Origin: Deltaproteobacteria bacterium
Lineage (GTDB): Bacteria > Myxococcota_A > Polyangia > Polyangiales > JADJMO01
DNA length: 37,012 nt
Reading direction: 5' to 3'
NCBI GenBank assembly: GCA_025363655.1
Contig: JANYDK010000023.1
Coordinates: 1-37,012, forward strand
Below the pieces are notes generated by a model. It saw only the letters and a list, made by a program, of their open reading frames with translations, made no database searches and had not been told where the DNA came from. The translations under genes and the position numbers were made by a program. Positions 2 to 5,067 of this stretch are shown here, piece after piece; position 1 is the stretch's first letter; every line of letters begins with the position of its first letter.

Positions 2-439
2 ACCCAGAAGGGTCGGGAGGACTCGATCGCCGTGATCGCGGTCTCGCACTCGATCGTCAGCCCCCGTGACCCCCAGAGCGGCCTGCCCACCGGGCCGCGC
101 ATGCACAAGCCCTGGGTCTTCACCAAGGAGCTCGATAAGGCCACCCCGATCCTCTACAACATCCTCTGCACGAACGAGAACATCACCACGGCGACGTTCA
201 AGTTCTGGACGCCGCAGCTCAAGGCCGCCTCGGGCGTCGGCTCCGAGGTGCAGCACTACACGGTCAAGCTGACCAACGCGAACATCGCCTCGTACGACTT
301 CCGTCAGGCGAACATCCGTCACCCCGACCTCGTCAAGTTCACCGAGTACGAGGAGATCGCCCTCACGTACCAGAAGATCGAGTGGACCTGGAACGACGGC
401 GGCATCACTTCCGGCGACGACTGGGAAGCCCGCAACTAA
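2..439 (+). CDS. hcp: Hcp family T6SS tube protein (5' end outside window)
   Basis: The protein is an Hcp-family subunit; Hcp hexameric rings stack into the inner tube that the contracting sheath expels. The frame is open from base 2, reading TQKGREDSIAVIAVSHSI, so the GTG at 32 is internal and the true start lies upstream. The visible 145 residues contain the Hcp hallmarks: SHSIVSPRDPQSGLPTG, the conserved HKPWVFTKELDKATP segment, and the late beta-strand/tail IEWTWNDGG. By family length (about 160-170 aa) only some 15-25 residues are missing. It reads on its own towards a convergent operon and is followed by a strong hairpin terminator. It lies about 4.7 kb from the rest of the T6SS locus but is very probably the tube protein of that machine. 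Confidence 0.95.
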   Translation, partial: TQKGREDSIAVIAVSHSIVSPRDPQSGLPTGPRMHKPWVFTKELDKATPILYNILCTNENITTATFKFWTPQLKAASGVGSEVQHYTVKLTNANIASYDFRQANIRHPDLVKFTEYEEIALTYQKIEWTWNDGGITSGDDWEARN

Positions 440-453
440 GACCTTCGGGTCGT

Positions 454-729
454 TCAGTCTTCGATTGCGCGTGTGCGCCGAGCGGCTTCATCGCCACTCG
501 GCGCATCGCCTTTTTGTCCTTCACTCCACCGGCCGACGAGCTCGGCGGCGACGATCAGCGACCGAGCGTCGATCGCATCGATGAACGATCGGAGCTCCGC
601 AGGCATGAGCTCGCGGAGCTTTGCACGGAGAGGGGCAATGTCTCCTCGAGAAGCAGCGTCCGACGCAGCTCCCGACGAGAGTGCGTGAAGTAGCGCTTCC
701 TGGTAGGTCGCGAGAAGCTTTCGCGTCAT
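454..729 (-). CDS. 91-aa partner protein of MNIO oxidase, unknown family
   Basis: I do not recognise this family. The 91 residues are predicted helical (MTRKLLATYQEALLHAL, then LRAKLRELMPAELRSFIDAI) and end in a charged tail; there is no cysteine, signal peptide or membrane segment. Its ATG overlaps the stop of the upstream MNIO gene by 4 bases (ATGA), implying translational coupling. MNIO enzymes commonly need a small partner protein encoded next door that delivers the precursor (MbnC, TglI and DUF2063 proteins are known examples), so a partner role is inferred from position, not homology. The 3' end contains the hcp terminator on the other strand, and the stop is only 14 bases from the hcp stop. 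Confidence 0.7.
   Translation of the reverse strand: MTRKLLATYQEALLHALSSGAASDAASRGDIAPLRAKLRELMPAELRSFIDAIDARSLIVAAELVGRWSEGQKGDAPSGDEAARRTRAIED
474..516 (+). terminator. Rho-independent terminator of hcp
   Basis: A perfect 9-bp stem (TGCGCCGAG at 474-482 with CTCGGCGCA at 497-505) has a 14-nt loop and is followed by TCGCC and five T residues at 511-515. It lies 34 bases after the hcp stop and sits inside the 3' coding end of the convergent 91-aa gene, so the same bases serve both purposes. Confidence 0.8.
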
Positions 730-1625
730 CGTGGCGATCCTCCGGCGACCACCAGACGAGCGCGCTCGAAGTCTCGCCGCAGGCCTTCACGTTCGGTCTC
801 CTCGCTGAGTGTGTCTCCGAGCCGTTCGACGATCACTGCCTCGAGCTCGGGGCAGCGCGGGAGAACGCGGGCGAGGAGCTCGAACACCTCGTCGGGAACC
901 GGCCCGTCGTGGGTGTCGCGACGAAACAGCCGGCCATCTGGCGATGACCACGAACCGCCCGAGAGGTGCACCTCTCGGACGCGATGGAGCGGATACGTCG
1001 ATAGAATTTCGTCGGGTGCGCGGAGCCCGTCGTCGAAGTTCGCGAGCTGGCACCAAAGATTGTGCAGATCGAGCAGGAGGAACCCGTCCTTGCCGAAGGG
1101 TTCGAGGAGCGCCTCGAGAAACGCACCTTGTTCGTCGACGTCGCGACGGCAGAAGGCGAAGGCGAGGTTCTCGACGCCGATCGGTACGCCGCTCGCCTCC
1201 GCCAGCTCGACGAGACGTTCCCGTCCGATGTCGATCGCGGTCTTGCTCATCGGCACTGGCAGCGGGGCCGAGCGGGCGAAGGAGGGCGTGGTCATGAACC
1301 CGAAGTGCTCGGTGAGATGACGATGACGGTGACGCGCGCATTCGGAGCGTAATTTTACGAGGCGTCGTCGTCGCAACAAGCCATCATCGTGCGCAGAGAG
1401 CAGTGAGTGATGAACGCCGTGGGCGTAGAGCCGTCCCTGGGCGCCGTAGTGGGCGAGCAGAGCTTCGACCCAATCGGGCAAGGGCCGGGGCTCGTCCTCG
1501 AGCCAGTCCGTCGGGGAGTCGAAGCTCCATTCGAGAGCATCGACGAGCCCGTCAGCAAAGAGAGGGAGGGTCGCCTCGCGAAAGTCGTCCTCGACCATCA
1601 ACGAAAGGCCGATGCGCGGGACCAT
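726..1625 (-). CDS. MNIO / DUF692 family metal-dependent oxidase
   Basis: A 299-aa TIM-barrel type protein of the DUF692 family, now called MNIO (multinuclear non-heme iron-dependent oxidases), which modify cysteine or other residues of ribosomal peptides. The expected metal-binding motifs appear in order: the His-rich AHGVHHS (69-73), TEHFGF (H107), GVENLAF (E152), LLDLHNL (D186, H188, N189), VREVHLSGG (H220), RRDTHDGPVP (D237, H239) and AVIVER (E267). These line up with the ligand set known from MbnB. The gene starts 48 bp after the stop of the 130-aa CxxC-tail protein and overlaps the 91-aa gene by 4 bp, so the three form one operon. Family assignment is confident; the substrate is inferred to be the protein encoded just upstream. 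Confidence 0.88.
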   Translation of the reverse strand: MVPRIGLSLMVEDDFREATLPLFADGLVDALEWSFDSPTDWLEDEPRPLPDWVEALLAHYGAQGRLYAHGVHHSLLSAHDDGLLRRRRLVKLRSECARHRHRHLTEHFGFMTTPSFARSAPLPVPMSKTAIDIGRERLVELAEASGVPIGVENLAFAFCRRDVDEQGAFLEALLEPFGKDGFLLLDLHNLWCQLANFDDGLRAPDEILSTYPLHRVREVHLSGGSWSSPDGRLFRRDTHDGPVPDEVFELLARVLPRCPELEAVIVERLGDTLSEETEREGLRRDFERARLVVAGGSPR

Positions 1626-1673
1626 CGGCTGCCCATAGTCCCACGATGCACGCGACTTGGCGCGTGCTCGTGC

Positions 1674-2066
1674 TCAACCCATTCCGCACGCGAGGCACTG
1701 CCACGGCTTCTCGTCGCGCGGGAGTGGCTTCGCTACAGGCTTCTTGGCGATCGGCGCAGGCTTCGCCGTCGGCGCCGGCGGAATGGCGATTTCGACGTTG
1801 GCGCCGCCAGGCTTCGCGACCATCGCTTCGACCGTTTCCGGTTCGGCCGGCACGGGCGAGGACAATGGCTCGCTCACCAGCGTCGAAGGGACCGGAGGGG
1901 CTTCGACGGCGAGGGCGACGGGCGCCGATGCCGTCTGGCTGGTCGCGGCGACGGGTCCTTCGGGAGCTGGCTGAACGTGAGGCGTGGTGCGACAGCCGAC
2001 CGTGAGAGCGACGGCGACGCCTCCACCGAGGCGCAGGGCTTCGAGTAGGGCAGGGGGGAGTTTCAT
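1674..2066 (-). CDS. Candidate MNIO substrate: exported Pro/Ala-rich protein with C-terminal CxxC
   Basis: A 130-aa protein with three parts. The N-terminus has a hydrophobic stretch (LGGGVAVALTVGC, residues 13-25) that could be a lipoprotein signal with Cys25 as the lipid site, although the -3 residue is Thr rather than the usual Leu. The middle (26-115) is a Pro/Ala/Glu linker without cysteine. The C-terminus is RDEKPWQCLACGMG, where Cys124 and Cys127 are the only other cysteines. Exported proteins with clustered cysteines are typical MNIO substrates (bufferin-type precursors, for example). I chose the ATG at 2066 because the longer frame runs back through the terminator of the preceding gene. 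Its role as substrate is inference from the operon. Confidence 0.7.
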   Translation of the reverse strand: MKLPPALLEALRLGGGVAVALTVGCRTTPHVQPAPEGPVAATSQTASAPVALAVEAPPVPSTLVSEPLSSPVPAEPETVEAMVAKPGGANVEIAIPPAPTAKPAPIAKKPVAKPLPRDEKPWQCLACGMG

Positions 2067-2134: not shown

Positions 2135-2178
2135 ACACAAAAACGGGCGCGGCGTGCGCTCCGGAGAGGCACGCCGCG
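2135..2178 (-). terminator. Rho-independent terminator of the BI-1 family gene
   Basis: A perfect 10-bp stem pairs 2148-2157 (CGCGGCGTGC) with 2169-2178 (GCACGCCGCG) across an 11-nt loop that itself contains CTCCGGAG. Read on the minus strand it is followed by CCCG and five T. It ends the 2201-3397 transcript, so the MNIO operon downstream should have its own promoter in 2067-2134, where I see no clear -35/-10 pair. Confidence 0.85.
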
Positions 2179-2200: not shown

Positions 2201-3397
2201 TCAGCGCCGTGACATGAGAATGCGGAGCAGGAACATGAAGAGGTTACGTATCTGCACGAGGAAGACGAGCGCGTCACCGACGGCATCGTCCATGCGGCTC
2301 TTCCGGAAGATCCAGCTCGTTTGGTAGAGGATCCAGCCGACCGCGAGGAGCGCGCCGACCGATGCGACGGCGAGCGAGAAGATTTCGGTCTGGAAGACGA
2401 ACGTGAGAAGGCACGCGACGAAGACGACGAACGAGCCCATCACGAGGAAGGCTCGCATGAAGGAGAAGTCCTTCTTGGTGATCGACACGTAGGCGGTGCA
2501 GCCGATGAAGACTGCGCCGGTGAGGGCGCCGGCGTCGCGTACCGGGTTCGCGCTGAGCGTGTCGCCGAGCCCGCCGAACACCTGCGCGACGAAGACCATC
2601 GGCGCAAGCTCGAGGCCCATCAGCGCCGAGACGAGGAAGAGCATGACGAGGTTGAGGCCCTTGACCTTGCTCGTCCAACTCGCCACGAAGGTCATTGCGA
2701 AGAGCACGCCGAAGGAGGCGTACATCAGCATCGGGTTCTCCAGCATCGCGGCGACGACCGCCGGAACCTGGATTTTCAGCCCCTTGTGGCCTTCTACGGT
2801 GAACGGCGTGGTGCCGCCGACGGTGACGCAGAGGAAGCCGGCGAGGATCGCCGTGAACACCGCGCCGCTGAGGAGGAGGTAGACCTTGCGAATGTATTTG
2901 AGACGTTCGGTGGAGAGGGCAGGTGCCTTCGCATCGCTGGCCGCACTCGCCGCCGCGCCGGCGCCTGCACCGGCGAACGCCATCTGCTGTTGCTGCTGCC
3001 AAGCTTGCGGCTGCGCCGGCGGCTGCGAGGCCTGCGCCTGCTGCTGCTGCCAGGCCTGCTGCGCCTGCGCGTAGGGCTGTCCGGTGCCTTGCGGCTGCTG
3101 GTACTGAGCAGCCTGCTGCTGGTACTGCTGCGCCTGTTGCTGCTGGTACTGCTGCTGCGCCTGGGCCTGCTGCTGGTATTGCTGCTGTTGCGGCTGTTGC
3201 GGCTGGGCCTGCTGCTGCTGGTATTGCTGGTGGGGCGCGGCGCCCGCTTGGCTCATCCGGACGTGGTAGCCACCCGTGGGGAGCTGCTGCACCTGGAGTT
3301 GCATTCCGCTCGCCGTCGCCGACTGGCGGTAGGCCTCGACCTGTTGGCGGTCGAGATCGGGGTTACCAGTGTTGATCGTGTACTCCCAGCCGTTCAT
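2201..3397 (-). CDS. Bax inhibitor-1 (BI-1/YccA) family membrane protein with Gln-rich N-terminal extension
   Basis: A 398-aa protein in two parts. Residues 1-50 start MNGWEYTINTGNPDLD and look folded. Residues about 57-138 are an extreme glutamine-rich stretch (runs of QQQ with Ala, Tyr and Pro), followed by a Gly/Ala hinge. From about residue 171 there are seven hydrophobic segments, starting VYLLLSGAVFTAILAGFLC and ending LFMFLLRILM, the topology of BI-1/YccA proteins. Bacterial homologues are usually about 230 aa, so the extension is extra. BI-1 proteins act in Ca2+ flux or membrane-protein quality control; the role here is unknown. The ATG at 3397 is preferred over an upstream GTG because GAAGGAG sits 7 bases before it. 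The gene is monocistronic, with its own terminator. Confidence 0.85.
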   Translation of the reverse strand: MNGWEYTINTGNPDLDRQQVEAYRQSATASGMQLQVQQLPTGGYHVRMSQAGAAPHQQYQQQQAQPQQPQQQQYQQQAQAQQQYQQQQAQQYQQQAAQYQQPQGTGQPYAQAQQAWQQQQAQASQPPAQPQAWQQQQQMAFAGAGAGAAASAASDAKAPALSTERLKYIRKVYLLLSGAVFTAILAGFLCVTVGGTTPFTVEGHKGLKIQVPAVVAAMLENPMLMYASFGVLFAMTFVASWTSKVKGLNLVMLFLVSALMGLELAPMVFVAQVFGGLGDTLSANPVRDAGALTGAVFIGCTAYVSITKKDFSFMRAFLVMGSFVVFVACLLTFVFQTEIFSLAVASVGALLAVGWILYQTSWIFRKSRMDDAVGDALVFLVQIRNLFMFLLRILMSRR

Positions 3398-3404
3398 CTT
3401 CGGG

Positions 3405-3411
3405 CTCCTTC
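3405..3411 (-). promoter_or_regulatory. Ribosome binding site fixing the BI-1 gene start
   Basis: On the minus strand these bases read GAAGGAG, 7 nt before the ATG at 3397. No comparable site precedes the in-frame GTG at 3418, so the shorter protein beginning MNGWEYT is the better call. Confidence 0.75.
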
Positions 3412-3651
3412 TCTCCACGTGACACGTGAGACGAGAGGTGTTGGTGCGTCTAGTCGAGTTGTCGTCCTCGACGCCACGCCGTTACCACCGTCGCGCCTGC
3501 GCTTGCCGCCTGCGAGGGAGATCGTATCGCGCTCCAGCCAGCGCGCAAAGCGAGCTGACCACGGCTGAGAACGGAGACCTTTGCGCCAGATCAGCGGTGC
3601 GACTTCTCGTACCACTCAACCTCGTCGGCGCTTCGCGGTGCGCTGCGCGAA

Positions 3652-4260
3652 TCAGAGCTCGATGTAGCCGCCGGGGACGACGAACGAGTCGTCGCGGCCG
3701 GCCATCACGAAGACGCCCCAGCACGCGAGCTTGGTCTTCACTGCGAAGTTGACCGCGTCCGAAGTGGCGGCGATCGGCGCGAGGATCGCGAGGTTGGCGC
3801 GATGCACGCCCCACGAGCCTTCGCCGTGCTGCAACACCGCTTCGTGAAGCTCACGGCCCGCGTCGGCCGGCGTCTTCAGGATGGCGACGCGGAGGCGGAC
3901 CTTCTCGGTGATGCCCTCGCCCTTGATGATGTCGATGTAGACGAGGTCGTTTCGCGCGCGCTCTGCGGTCGTCTCGAAGCCTTGCGTCTTGAGGAAGTCG
4001 GCAAGGGCATTCTCGTCGAGCGTGCGGTAGTCGACGTGGATGTCGGAGTCTTTGCAGACCGAGCGTTTGAAGCGCATCTCGCCAGGCGCGAGGTAGCCGG
4101 ACATGCTCGTGCCCTGGCCTTCCATCTGCGCGGCGCCGTCGCCATGCGAGTAGTGCATCATCGGCGTCGAGCACGCCGTGGCAGAGAGGCCGAGCGCCGC
4201 GCAGAGAGCGGTGAGGGCGAGGCCGACGGAACCGAGGGGGAGGGAGCGCGGCGAAGTCAT
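3652..4260 (-). CDS. Predicted lipoprotein, unknown function
   Basis: A 202-aa protein of no family I recognise. The start MTSPRSLPLGSVGLALTALC gives a good signal peptide ending in a lipobox (SATAC, Cys30), so it is probably a lipid-anchored envelope protein. The mature part includes MHYSHGDGAAQMEGQG, a mixed alpha/beta region (NALADFLKTQGFETTAERAR; LVYIDIIKGEG) and a tail rich in small residues. The frame stays open far upstream (to 5076), but that part is antisense to the next gene and lacks a signal, so I start at 4260. It is divergent from the lipoprotein at 4393 across a shared 132-bp promoter region. Confidence 0.75.
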   Translation of the reverse strand: MTSPRSLPLGSVGLALTALCAALGLSATACSTPMMHYSHGDGAAQMEGQGTSMSGYLAPGEMRFKRSVCKDSDIHVDYRTLDENALADFLKTQGFETTAERARNDLVYIDIIKGEGITEKVRLRVAILKTPADAGRELHEAVLQHGEGSWGVHRANLAILAPIAATSDAVNFAVKTKLACWGVFVMAGRDDSFVVPGGYIEL

Positions 4261-4392
4261 CCTGTCCGGGATTTCTATCCCATCCGCGCCGGGGCGGCCG
4301 ACTTTCTCGCCAAACCCACCCCAGCCCGCGCCCGAGGCCGATGACACGAAGGATGTTTGCCACTCCGGCCCGCGTCTCACTAGACTCGCCCC

Positions 4393-5067
4393 ATGCTTCG
4401 CTCTCCGAGGTGGAACCTCCCGTCGGCCCTCACCCTCGTCGGTGCGCTCGCGCCCTTCGCCCTTGCCCTCGCCGGCACGGGATGCGGCGGCGGACCCGAT
4501 CCCGTCGCGTTCCAGAACCGCACGTTCTACGCGTACATGTTCAACGGCAATCTCGACGTCAGCTCGTTCGAGAAGCCGTGGAAGCCGTGGGACCTCGCGG
4601 AGCAAAAGCCGAACCCCGAGTACATCGGCGTCGCGCTCCTCAACGAGAAGGTGCACGTGTCGCGCCCGAAGAACTGGGTGATTCGCGACGCCAGCAACGC
4701 GCCCGGACAGCGTTACATCGAATACGCCTCGCCGAATGGCTACCTCTTCGCCATCTACGAGCGGCCCGATCGTCCCGATGATCTCTGGCGTGACATCATG
4801 GCGCGCTACGAGGGTGACGTGAAGGACTCTGGCGCCAACATGGTCGGCCAGCGCATCCCGATGGCGACGTGGAACACGCAGGGTCGCGAGTACGTCATCA
4901 AGCGCGGCGTCGCGGCCGCGAAGGCCCCCTTCGTCAGCGTCAGTCGCGAATACATCCTTCGCAGCGAAAAACGCATCGTCCTCGTCCAGGTGGTTCACCA
5001 GGGCGAAACGCTCAAGCCGATCACCGACGAGCTCTATCGCGTGATCGCGTCGATCGAAGTCCTGTAA
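4393..5067 (+). CDS. Predicted lipoprotein, unknown function
   Basis: A 224-aa protein with an N-terminal signal (SALTLVGALAPFALALAGTGC) whose lipobox Cys is residue 31. The mature region contains aromatic-rich stretches (FQNRTFYAYMFNGNLDV; FEKPWKPWDL) and two later segments, RYIEYASPNGYLFAIYERP and VSREYILRSEKRIVLVQ, that look like paired beta-strands of a compact domain reminiscent of PsbP/DUF1795-like folds; that resemblance is only suggestive. It ends in a helix (ITDELYRVIASIEVL). It is divergent from the lipoprotein at 3652-4260 and convergent with tssG. No T6SS assignment can be made from sequence. Confidence 0.78.
   Translation: MLRSPRWNLPSALTLVGALAPFALALAGTGCGGGPDPVAFQNRTFYAYMFNGNLDVSSFEKPWKPWDLAEQKPNPEYIGVALLNEKVHVSRPKNWVIRDASNAPGQRYIEYASPNGYLFAIYERPDRPDDLWRDIMARYEGDVKDSGANMVGQRIPMATWNTQGREYVIKRGVAAAKAPFVSVSREYILRSEKRIVLVQVVHQGETLKPITDELYRVIASIEVL

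Follow-up and report, generated by a model that had tools for sequence, protein, structure and literature searches.

A predicted chryseobasin-subfamily DAG-RiPP cassette with a separately encoded ChrH-type helical domain in a member of the Polyangiales

The chryseobasin subfamily of MNIO enzymes was characterised in 2023 with ChrH (PMC10214503) and in 2025 with DybH (PMC12636315). As described in the main text of the latter study, DybH, ChsH, HymH, and MelH together with MelHc generate an unmethylated product with a mass change of -4 Da, and both the unmethylated and the methylated product are obtained with ArlAH of Archangium. In the DybH product a thiohemiaminal macrocycle takes up one thiol, so that a single free thiol is left, and the aromatic chromophore of methanobactins and bufferins is reported to be absent. 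The tail of the substrate is sufficient for DybH, even when it is placed on GFP, and the enzyme accepts changes within the ring. DybA is triacylated via its SPII lipobox, and such hybrids have been named DAG-RiPPs. MelHc is a helical domain that binds MelH and is needed for its activity; this split is reported in Cyanobacteria (PMC12636315).

The window analysed here, a stretch of 37,012 nucleotides from a 9.0-Mb genome, carries a three-gene cassette on the minus strand at 454-2066, in the order P0001, P0002 and P0003, with all three reading frames intact. Very probably the product of this cassette is a DAG-RiPP of the chryseobasin (ChrH/DybH) subfamily, for which the MNIO and its detached helical domain (Hc) work as one enzyme on a precursor that receives a ring in its tail and a lipid on Cys25. 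It fits the published scheme in every part that can be tested on the sequence, except for the proline of the tail. Because the subfamily is already characterised, the tail is expected to carry a macrocycle and a hydantoin, with a mass change of -4 Da (+10 Da in the case of S-methylation), and Cys25 is expected to be lipidated. New in this work are the identity of P0003, the repeated switching between split and fused enzymes, the deviations of the window (tail Leu, Arg88, long spacer) and a conserved N-terminal element of the precursors. The DAG-RiPP kind is hereby extended to a lipoprotein that would display its modified ring on a long spacer.

When compared with the described systems, the cassette is most like DybA/DybH of Dyadobacter crusticola in having a ChrH-branch MNIO, an SPII lipobox, a C-terminal CxxCGMG and a minimal cluster, and the Dyadobacter relatives L042 and L043 start with MKISK..., which is the same N-terminal element as in the window precursor. 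According to PMC12636315, the helical domain is fused in that system, the related precursors have about 50 residues and the tail is CPACGMG, whereas in the window the domain is split off, and the precursor has 130 residues, a long spacer and the tail CLACGMG. The helical domain is a separate small gene, and the substrate is large, also in MelA1/MelH/MelHc of Candidatus Melainabacteria, but MelA1 is described as a 34-kDa TPR protein that is exported via SPI (PMC12636315), unlike the window lipoprotein. ChrA/ChrH/ChrI of Chryseobacterium shares the MNIO subfamily and the target of the tail chemistry (PMC10214503); the chryseobasin system has a fused enzyme, an SPI precursor and an S-methylated +10 Da product, and its membrane protein ChrI and additional genes chrE/chrP are missing from the window. 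ArlA/ArlH is, like the window cassette, a Myxococcota member of the subfamily, but ArlA is reported to have an embedded CPACGMMM motif, giving a mixture of methylated and unmethylated product (PMC12636315), whereas the window precursor has a C-terminal motif and a lipobox.

The initial annotation had described a minus-strand operon at 454-2066 with a possible lipoprotein signal, a Cys-free linker, a WQCLACGMG tail and an ATGA overlap, all of which are confirmed by direct reading, the signal as a lipobox. The same holds for the independent upstream terminator that it had noted. This is a terminator-like structure at 2139-2178 (minus strand), at the 3' end of the upstream Bax1-I gene, consisting of a perfect 10-bp hairpin (CGCGGCGTGC...GCACGCCGCG) followed by a T5 stretch (CCCGTTTTT), and it sets the cassette apart from the upstream gene; the fold z of -3.0 is computed for the region 2125-2200. 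The hairpin is missing from the standard scan, probably because the loop limit of that scan is 8. The upstream gene itself (2201-3418, minus strand) encodes a membrane protein of the Bax1-I family, whose N-terminal part has a long tract rich in Gln. Within the cassette, the 48-bp gap between P0001 and P0002 holds a 7-bp hairpin, GCACGCG/CGCGTGC (1648-1667, minus strand; region fold z -2.3), which may serve in transcript protection or attenuation, and the start of P0003 overlaps the stop codon of P0002 by ATGA, a coupling that is also present in other split loci. At the other side, the cassette lies at the edge of a T6SS cluster (32-439, plus strand, and 5175-28429) with Hcp, TssG, TssF, a gp25-like TssE, a ClpV-like ATPase, TssK, TagF and TssB; the stop codons of Hcp and P0003 converge, 15 bp apart.

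P0002 (726-1625, minus strand, 299 residues) is identified from Pfam, NCBIfam, alignment and structure matches as an MNIO (DUF692) enzyme of the ChrH/DybH subfamily that comprises the TIM-barrel part only. It matches Pfam PF05114 (MbnB_TglH_ChrH) with an E-value of 3e-27 and the NCBIfam model MNIO_ChrH (NF050165) with 1e-85; the latter match covers positions 2-282 of the 363 profile positions, and the uncovered rest is the C-terminal domain. The score of 288 bits is below the curated cut-off of 600 bits for full-length proteins, which is perhaps unsurprising for a divergent barrel that lacks the C-terminal domain. The next-best MNIO models (bufferin, HvfB, ApyH) reach 2e-20 (BufB) or weaker values. 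In the tree, P0002 groups with the ChrH-like loci and apart from three other Myxococcota MNIOs, with support of 100/100. By profile and tree, it is thus assigned to the ChrH/DybH (chryseobasin) branch and not to BufB, HvfB, TglH or MbnB. Membership of the bufferin/oxazolin group (BufABC, HvfABC) was also considered and rejected, the cassette having neither a BufB/HvfB-type MNIO nor a precursor of the EGKCG or DUF2282 type. Three more MNIO genes, distant in sequence and belonging to other subfamilies, are present in the host genome (C109, C86, C38; L001-L003), and the reading frames downstream of L001 and L002 resemble, by eye, bufferin-type partners.

The iron ligands were located via the alignment to 80 relatives and the family profile onto the solved structures of TglH (8hci/8hi7/8hi8), whose ligands are His71, His107, Glu151, Asp184, Asn187, His216, Asp229, His231 and Glu258 (PMC10880893). 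All nine positions equivalent in TglH/MbnB are occupied in P0002, by H69, H107, E152, D186, N189, H220, D237, H239 and E267, in agreement with the full ligand set that had been noted initially. The enzyme has Arg88 at a position where all 80 relatives have Trp. Together with the Leu that takes the place of Pro in the tail of the precursor, this residue means that the activity or the product of P0002 could differ. A co-variation of the lost tail Pro with the lost Trp88 is ruled out, as other non-Pro tails are paired with enzymes that keep the Trp.

P0001 (1674-2066, minus strand, 130 residues) is classified, from a match to NF050125 and the tail survey, as a precursor lipoprotein like ChrA/DybA. 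It reads MKLPPALLEALRLGGGVAVALTVG, then, after the predicted cleavage point, C25-RTTP...-W-Q-C124-L-A-C127-G-M-G130, with the stop codon directly after. A positive n-region and a hydrophobic core are followed by the lipobox L-T-V-G-C25, as read directly from the sequence, and Cys25 (1992-1994) is the predicted site of diacylglycerol attachment and SPII cleavage; the lipobox is kept in the precursors of most relatives. The only other cysteines are C124 and C127 of the tail, there being none between C25 and C124, and residues 26-123 (1698-1991) form a Pro/Ala-rich, Cys-free spacer of about 98 residues. The C-terminal core C124-L-A-C127-G-M-G130 (1677-1697), recognised by sequence and by the tail survey, is the predicted site of the macrocycle and the hydantoin. 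It keeps both Cys and the GMG of the CPxCGxG pattern, and the Pro is replaced by Leu125. At this position Pro is found in 78 of 86 tails of relatives, and the eight non-Pro cases include intact members with the tails CGPCGMG, CTACGRG, CLSCGMG and CIACGMG.

The initial annotation knew of no matching precursor type, a statement that is overturned by the ChrH-type MNIO and by the match of P0001 to NF050125 ("chryseobasin-related MNIO RiPP", ChrA_rel_RiPP) with an E-value of 1.1e-7, its 32.4 bits being under the curated cut-off of 40 bits. On these sequence comparisons the precursor is of the ChrA/DybA type of the chryseobasin subfamily, as a divergent member. Pfam gives no family match for P0001, and the EGKCG motif is absent from it. 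Searching 379 Myxococcota genomes with P0001 by tblastn returns no precursor homologue except P0001 itself, presumably because the spacer is unconserved. Within the host genome there is no second cassette and no second copy of the precursor N-terminus, and the CxxCGMG-stop ending is found in the window copy only.

The association of such tails with the enzyme was analysed in 80 related loci, using a strict rule in which a same-strand reading frame ending in C-x-x-C-[G/S]-x-G-stop lies at most 1.3 kb upstream of the MNIO gene; both Cys and the last Gly are demanded by this pattern, whereas any residue is allowed after the first Cys. By this rule, 75 of the 80 loci have a tail precursor close upstream of the MNIO gene (86 reading frames); the number is 77 with the inclusion of L037 and L046, which fail the rule because of the script's choice of an ambiguous MNIO start. 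Upstream of the enzyme, 85 tail reading frames occur in 0.107 million strand-bases, versus three in 1.49 million elsewhere in the same loci, these three being those of L037 and L046 and a second precursor in L025. The tail precursor beside the MNIO gene is not a chance pairing. Some related loci have two or three precursors. Non-adjacent precursors occur in two Myxococcota genomes, on another contig in G309 and about 3 kb away in G034, and searching the Myxococcota genomes with the tail pattern yields one further convincing precursor, that of G309. The proposals of an MNIO RiPP locus with an exported lipoprotein as likely substrate, and of its two tail cysteines as the likely target, are supported by this co-occurrence in 75-77 of 80 loci and by the conservation of the tail among the family precursors, in which both Cys are set by the search pattern. 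The initial observation is sound; its interpretation is superseded.

P0003 (454-729, minus strand, 91 residues) is identified, from profile matches and an AlphaFold2 model, as the C-terminal helical domain of ChrH encoded separately, like MelHc. With a profile that contains fused C-terminal domains alone, from Myxococcota, Cyanobacteria and Acidimicrobiales, it gives an E-value of 1.1e-7, and with one made of the remaining split reading frames 6e-11, the best E-value among the controls (397 decoy reading frames and 5000 shuffles) being 0.04. With a broad, Bacteroidota-dominated profile of fused domains the E-value is 0.56 and two shuffles rank higher; the homology of P0003 is therefore shown through intermediate sequences. 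The small split reading frames of relatives also match the C-terminal domain of the fused enzymes, and Gln10 and Trp68 are invariant across 59 aligned helical domains. No significant relative of P0003 is found in the PDB, either by sequence or by fold. The model of the fused relative L025 is confident and shows two domains (pLDDT 90.6, pTM 0.90), of which the barrel matches TglH and MbnB. On these homology searches, P0003 is assigned as the ChrH C-terminal helical domain encoded apart, as in the cyanobacterial MelHc, and not as the MbnC/TglI-like partner that had been proposed for the 91-residue protein. The mystery partner would thus be the enzyme's own detached domain, and experimenters should co-express all three genes.

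It is quite unlikely that P0003 is instead a separate, RRE-like substrate-binding partner of the MbnC/TglI/BufC type which recognises the precursor. Its position and translational coupling are as for partners of other MNIOs, and such partner proteins are common (PMC12452194), but P0003 is clearly homologous to the fused ChrH domain and finds no partner-family match in Pfam or NCBIfam. The beta-sheet fold by which MbnC and TglI bind leaders (PMC10214503) is also in disagreement with the AlphaFold2 model of P0003, which is all-helical and without strands (pLDDT 87.6), and this type of partner was rejected. The two readings overlap in function, since a detached Hc could still aid substrate binding. 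Decay of the cassette, which would leave the cysteines in their unmodified form and yield no more than a common CxxC lipoprotein, is improbable to the same degree: W88R deviates from 80/80 relatives and P125L from 78/86, and the cassette is missing from family neighbours, but three intact reading frames, all iron ligands and the Hc-invariant Q10 and W68 are kept, other intact members are also without the Pro, and DybH is reported to tolerate changes in the ring (PMC12636315).

The two tail cysteines and the lipid anchor would also suit a surface chelator of copper or another metal, similar to the lipidated bufferin/oxazolin relatives, for which a role in copper sequestration at the membrane has been proposed (PMC12636315). 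This is unlikely, although slightly less so than the two readings above, given that the enzyme is of the ChrH and not the BufB/HvfB branch, that the DybH product as described in PMC12636315 has a single free thiol and no aromatic chromophore, and that no metal transporter or regulator was recognised by eye in the cassette or as shared among six related loci inspected. The metal-binding or redox peptide that had been suggested initially is likewise unsupported; the homologue DybH spends one thiol in the thiohemiaminal macrocycle, and the main text of PMC12636315 assigns no function. Least probable is a T6SS accessory role of the lipoprotein (TssJ-like or Hcp-associated) in place of a RiPP. The cassette is only 15 bp from the hcp stop codon, at the edge of the T6SS cluster, but it is convergent with hcp, no T6SS genes were recognised by eye beside the six related cassettes inspected, and the co-occurrence of the tail precursor with the MNIO is strong and of the RiPP type.

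For the preferred DAG-RiPP reading, the sequence of events can be proposed by analogy with the characterised homologues. In the cytoplasm, the P0002 barrel and the P0003 helical domain would assemble as one enzyme, like MelH/MelHc, whose di- or tri-iron site would take up the C-terminal CLACGMG and carry out a four-electron oxidation with O2. Cys124 would become cross-linked to the beta-carbon of the former Cys127, the thiol of Cys127 would shift to the alpha-carbon, and the Gly-Met backbone would close to a hydantoin, giving -4 Da; S-methylation (+10 Da) is possible but less likely. Sec export, lipidation of Cys25 and the cut by signal peptidase II would then follow, in an order of steps taken from the homologues. 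The end state would be a membrane anchor, a flexible Pro/Ala-rich spacer of about 98 residues and the modified ring at its distal end.

The N-terminus of the precursors has a conserved element, MKLPPALLEALR in the window (2031-2066, minus strand), with the family consensus M-K-[LI]-[SP]-x-x-L-L-x-A-[IL], as derived from a regular expression and from column information. The expression fits 74 of 85 precursors and none of 167 other signal-peptide-like reading frames of the same loci, including 0/37 of those with a lipobox; the contrast is descriptive, because the expression was written after the sequences were seen. The column information comes from a set of 46 precursors, made up of a single representative of each enzyme group under 65% identity together with the window precursor and three more. 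In it, positions 3, 4, 7 and 8 of the element carry 2.6-3.4 bits, compared with at most about 1 bit at positions -14 to -10, where the spacer ends. The element is kept in Bacteroidota, Myxococcota, Planctomycetota and Obscuribacterales (Cyanobacteria), and the spacer drifts freely. The comparison covers precursors other than Chryseobacterium ChrA, none being above the cut-off among 299 genomes of the order. The Myxococcota elements hold acidic and basic residues (MKLPPALLEALR, MRLPPALLEQLR, MHLPSGLLERLR), and in Obscuribacterales a basic or polar stretch lies between the element and a separate membrane segment; the element would therefore be more than a hydrophobic signal core. These sequences do no more than suggest a function for it, with common ancestry contributing to its conservation. 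Tentatively, and with more doubt than confidence, it can be seen as a docking or hold-back signal. The MNIO/Hc complex would then let go of the precursor only after modification of its tail, and this step would be coupled with export and lipidation. For the precursor N-terminus, relaxed selection is proposed in the main text of PMC12636315, where the element is not discussed. The element offers a testable handle on how modification outpaces export, a point that is raised but left unsettled in the main text of that work.

The split arrangement of the window is found in 11 loci from genome contigs, where a short MNIO is followed by a reading frame of 62-78 residues overlapping its stop codon; other loci have a single MNIO of 360-400 residues. 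Cyanobacteria are not the only group with split helical domains, which are also present in Myxococcota, Planctomycetota, Verrucomicrobiota and Acidimicrobiales. Parsimony gives at least six changes of state on a tree of 45 barrels, whose deep forks are poorly supported, and three of them fall in supported groups: L025 within L019/L029/L032/L038, L056 versus L067, and L099/L101 beside L096 (89/90). The enzymes have switched between split and fused across phyla, at least three times. The barrel of L025 is 79% identical to that of the split L019, and its fusion runs through 7.4 copies of a 14-bp tandem repeat (2108-2211), with the former start Met of the small gene retained. Since 14 is not divisible by 3, changes in the copy number would toggle between the split and fused states.

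A ChrH-type MNIO at E < 1e-50 is present in nine of the 379 genomes searched in the phylum, and the four remaining genomes of the family to which the window belongs show no ChrH-like match. The nearest enzyme found is that of the planctomycetal locus L010 (Isosphaera sp.), with 59% identity over 276 columns and a tree pairing of 89/80. This patchy distribution and the cross-phylum affinity suggest that the cassette may have been acquired by horizontal transfer. L010 is also like the window in its split helical domain and has a lipobox precursor, starting with MNLPANLL; it differs in its tail (CPACGQG), its shorter precursor and a PqqD/M50-like protein upstream. By eye, the region upstream of its precursor (2297-4618) looks to encode a membrane protease with PqqD-like and M50-like parts, with an HlyD/WD40-like protein before it, and the PqqD/M50-like protein is a possible export or processing partner in Planctomycetota.

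Other arrangements are seen in further Myxococcota genomes. In two of them, L099 (reverse strand) and L101, the fusion of the MNIO and the helical domain continues into a zinc alcohol dehydrogenase (ADH_N of Pfam at 1e-25 in the part from L101), and no CxxCGxG-tailed precursor was found near either. L104-L111 form a second Myxococcota MNIO group, which is distinct from ChrH, with a distant match only, and carries a partner or C-terminal extension of about 100-145 residues (motif ARLRFERL.GS..., FR.YH.E.P). In L112/L113 (5096-5324), precursors without an obvious signal peptide and with the embedded motif GPEYC[MA]ACGLVAH... adjoin a split MNIO and helical domain, and these precursors resemble the published embedded-motif type of Archangium.
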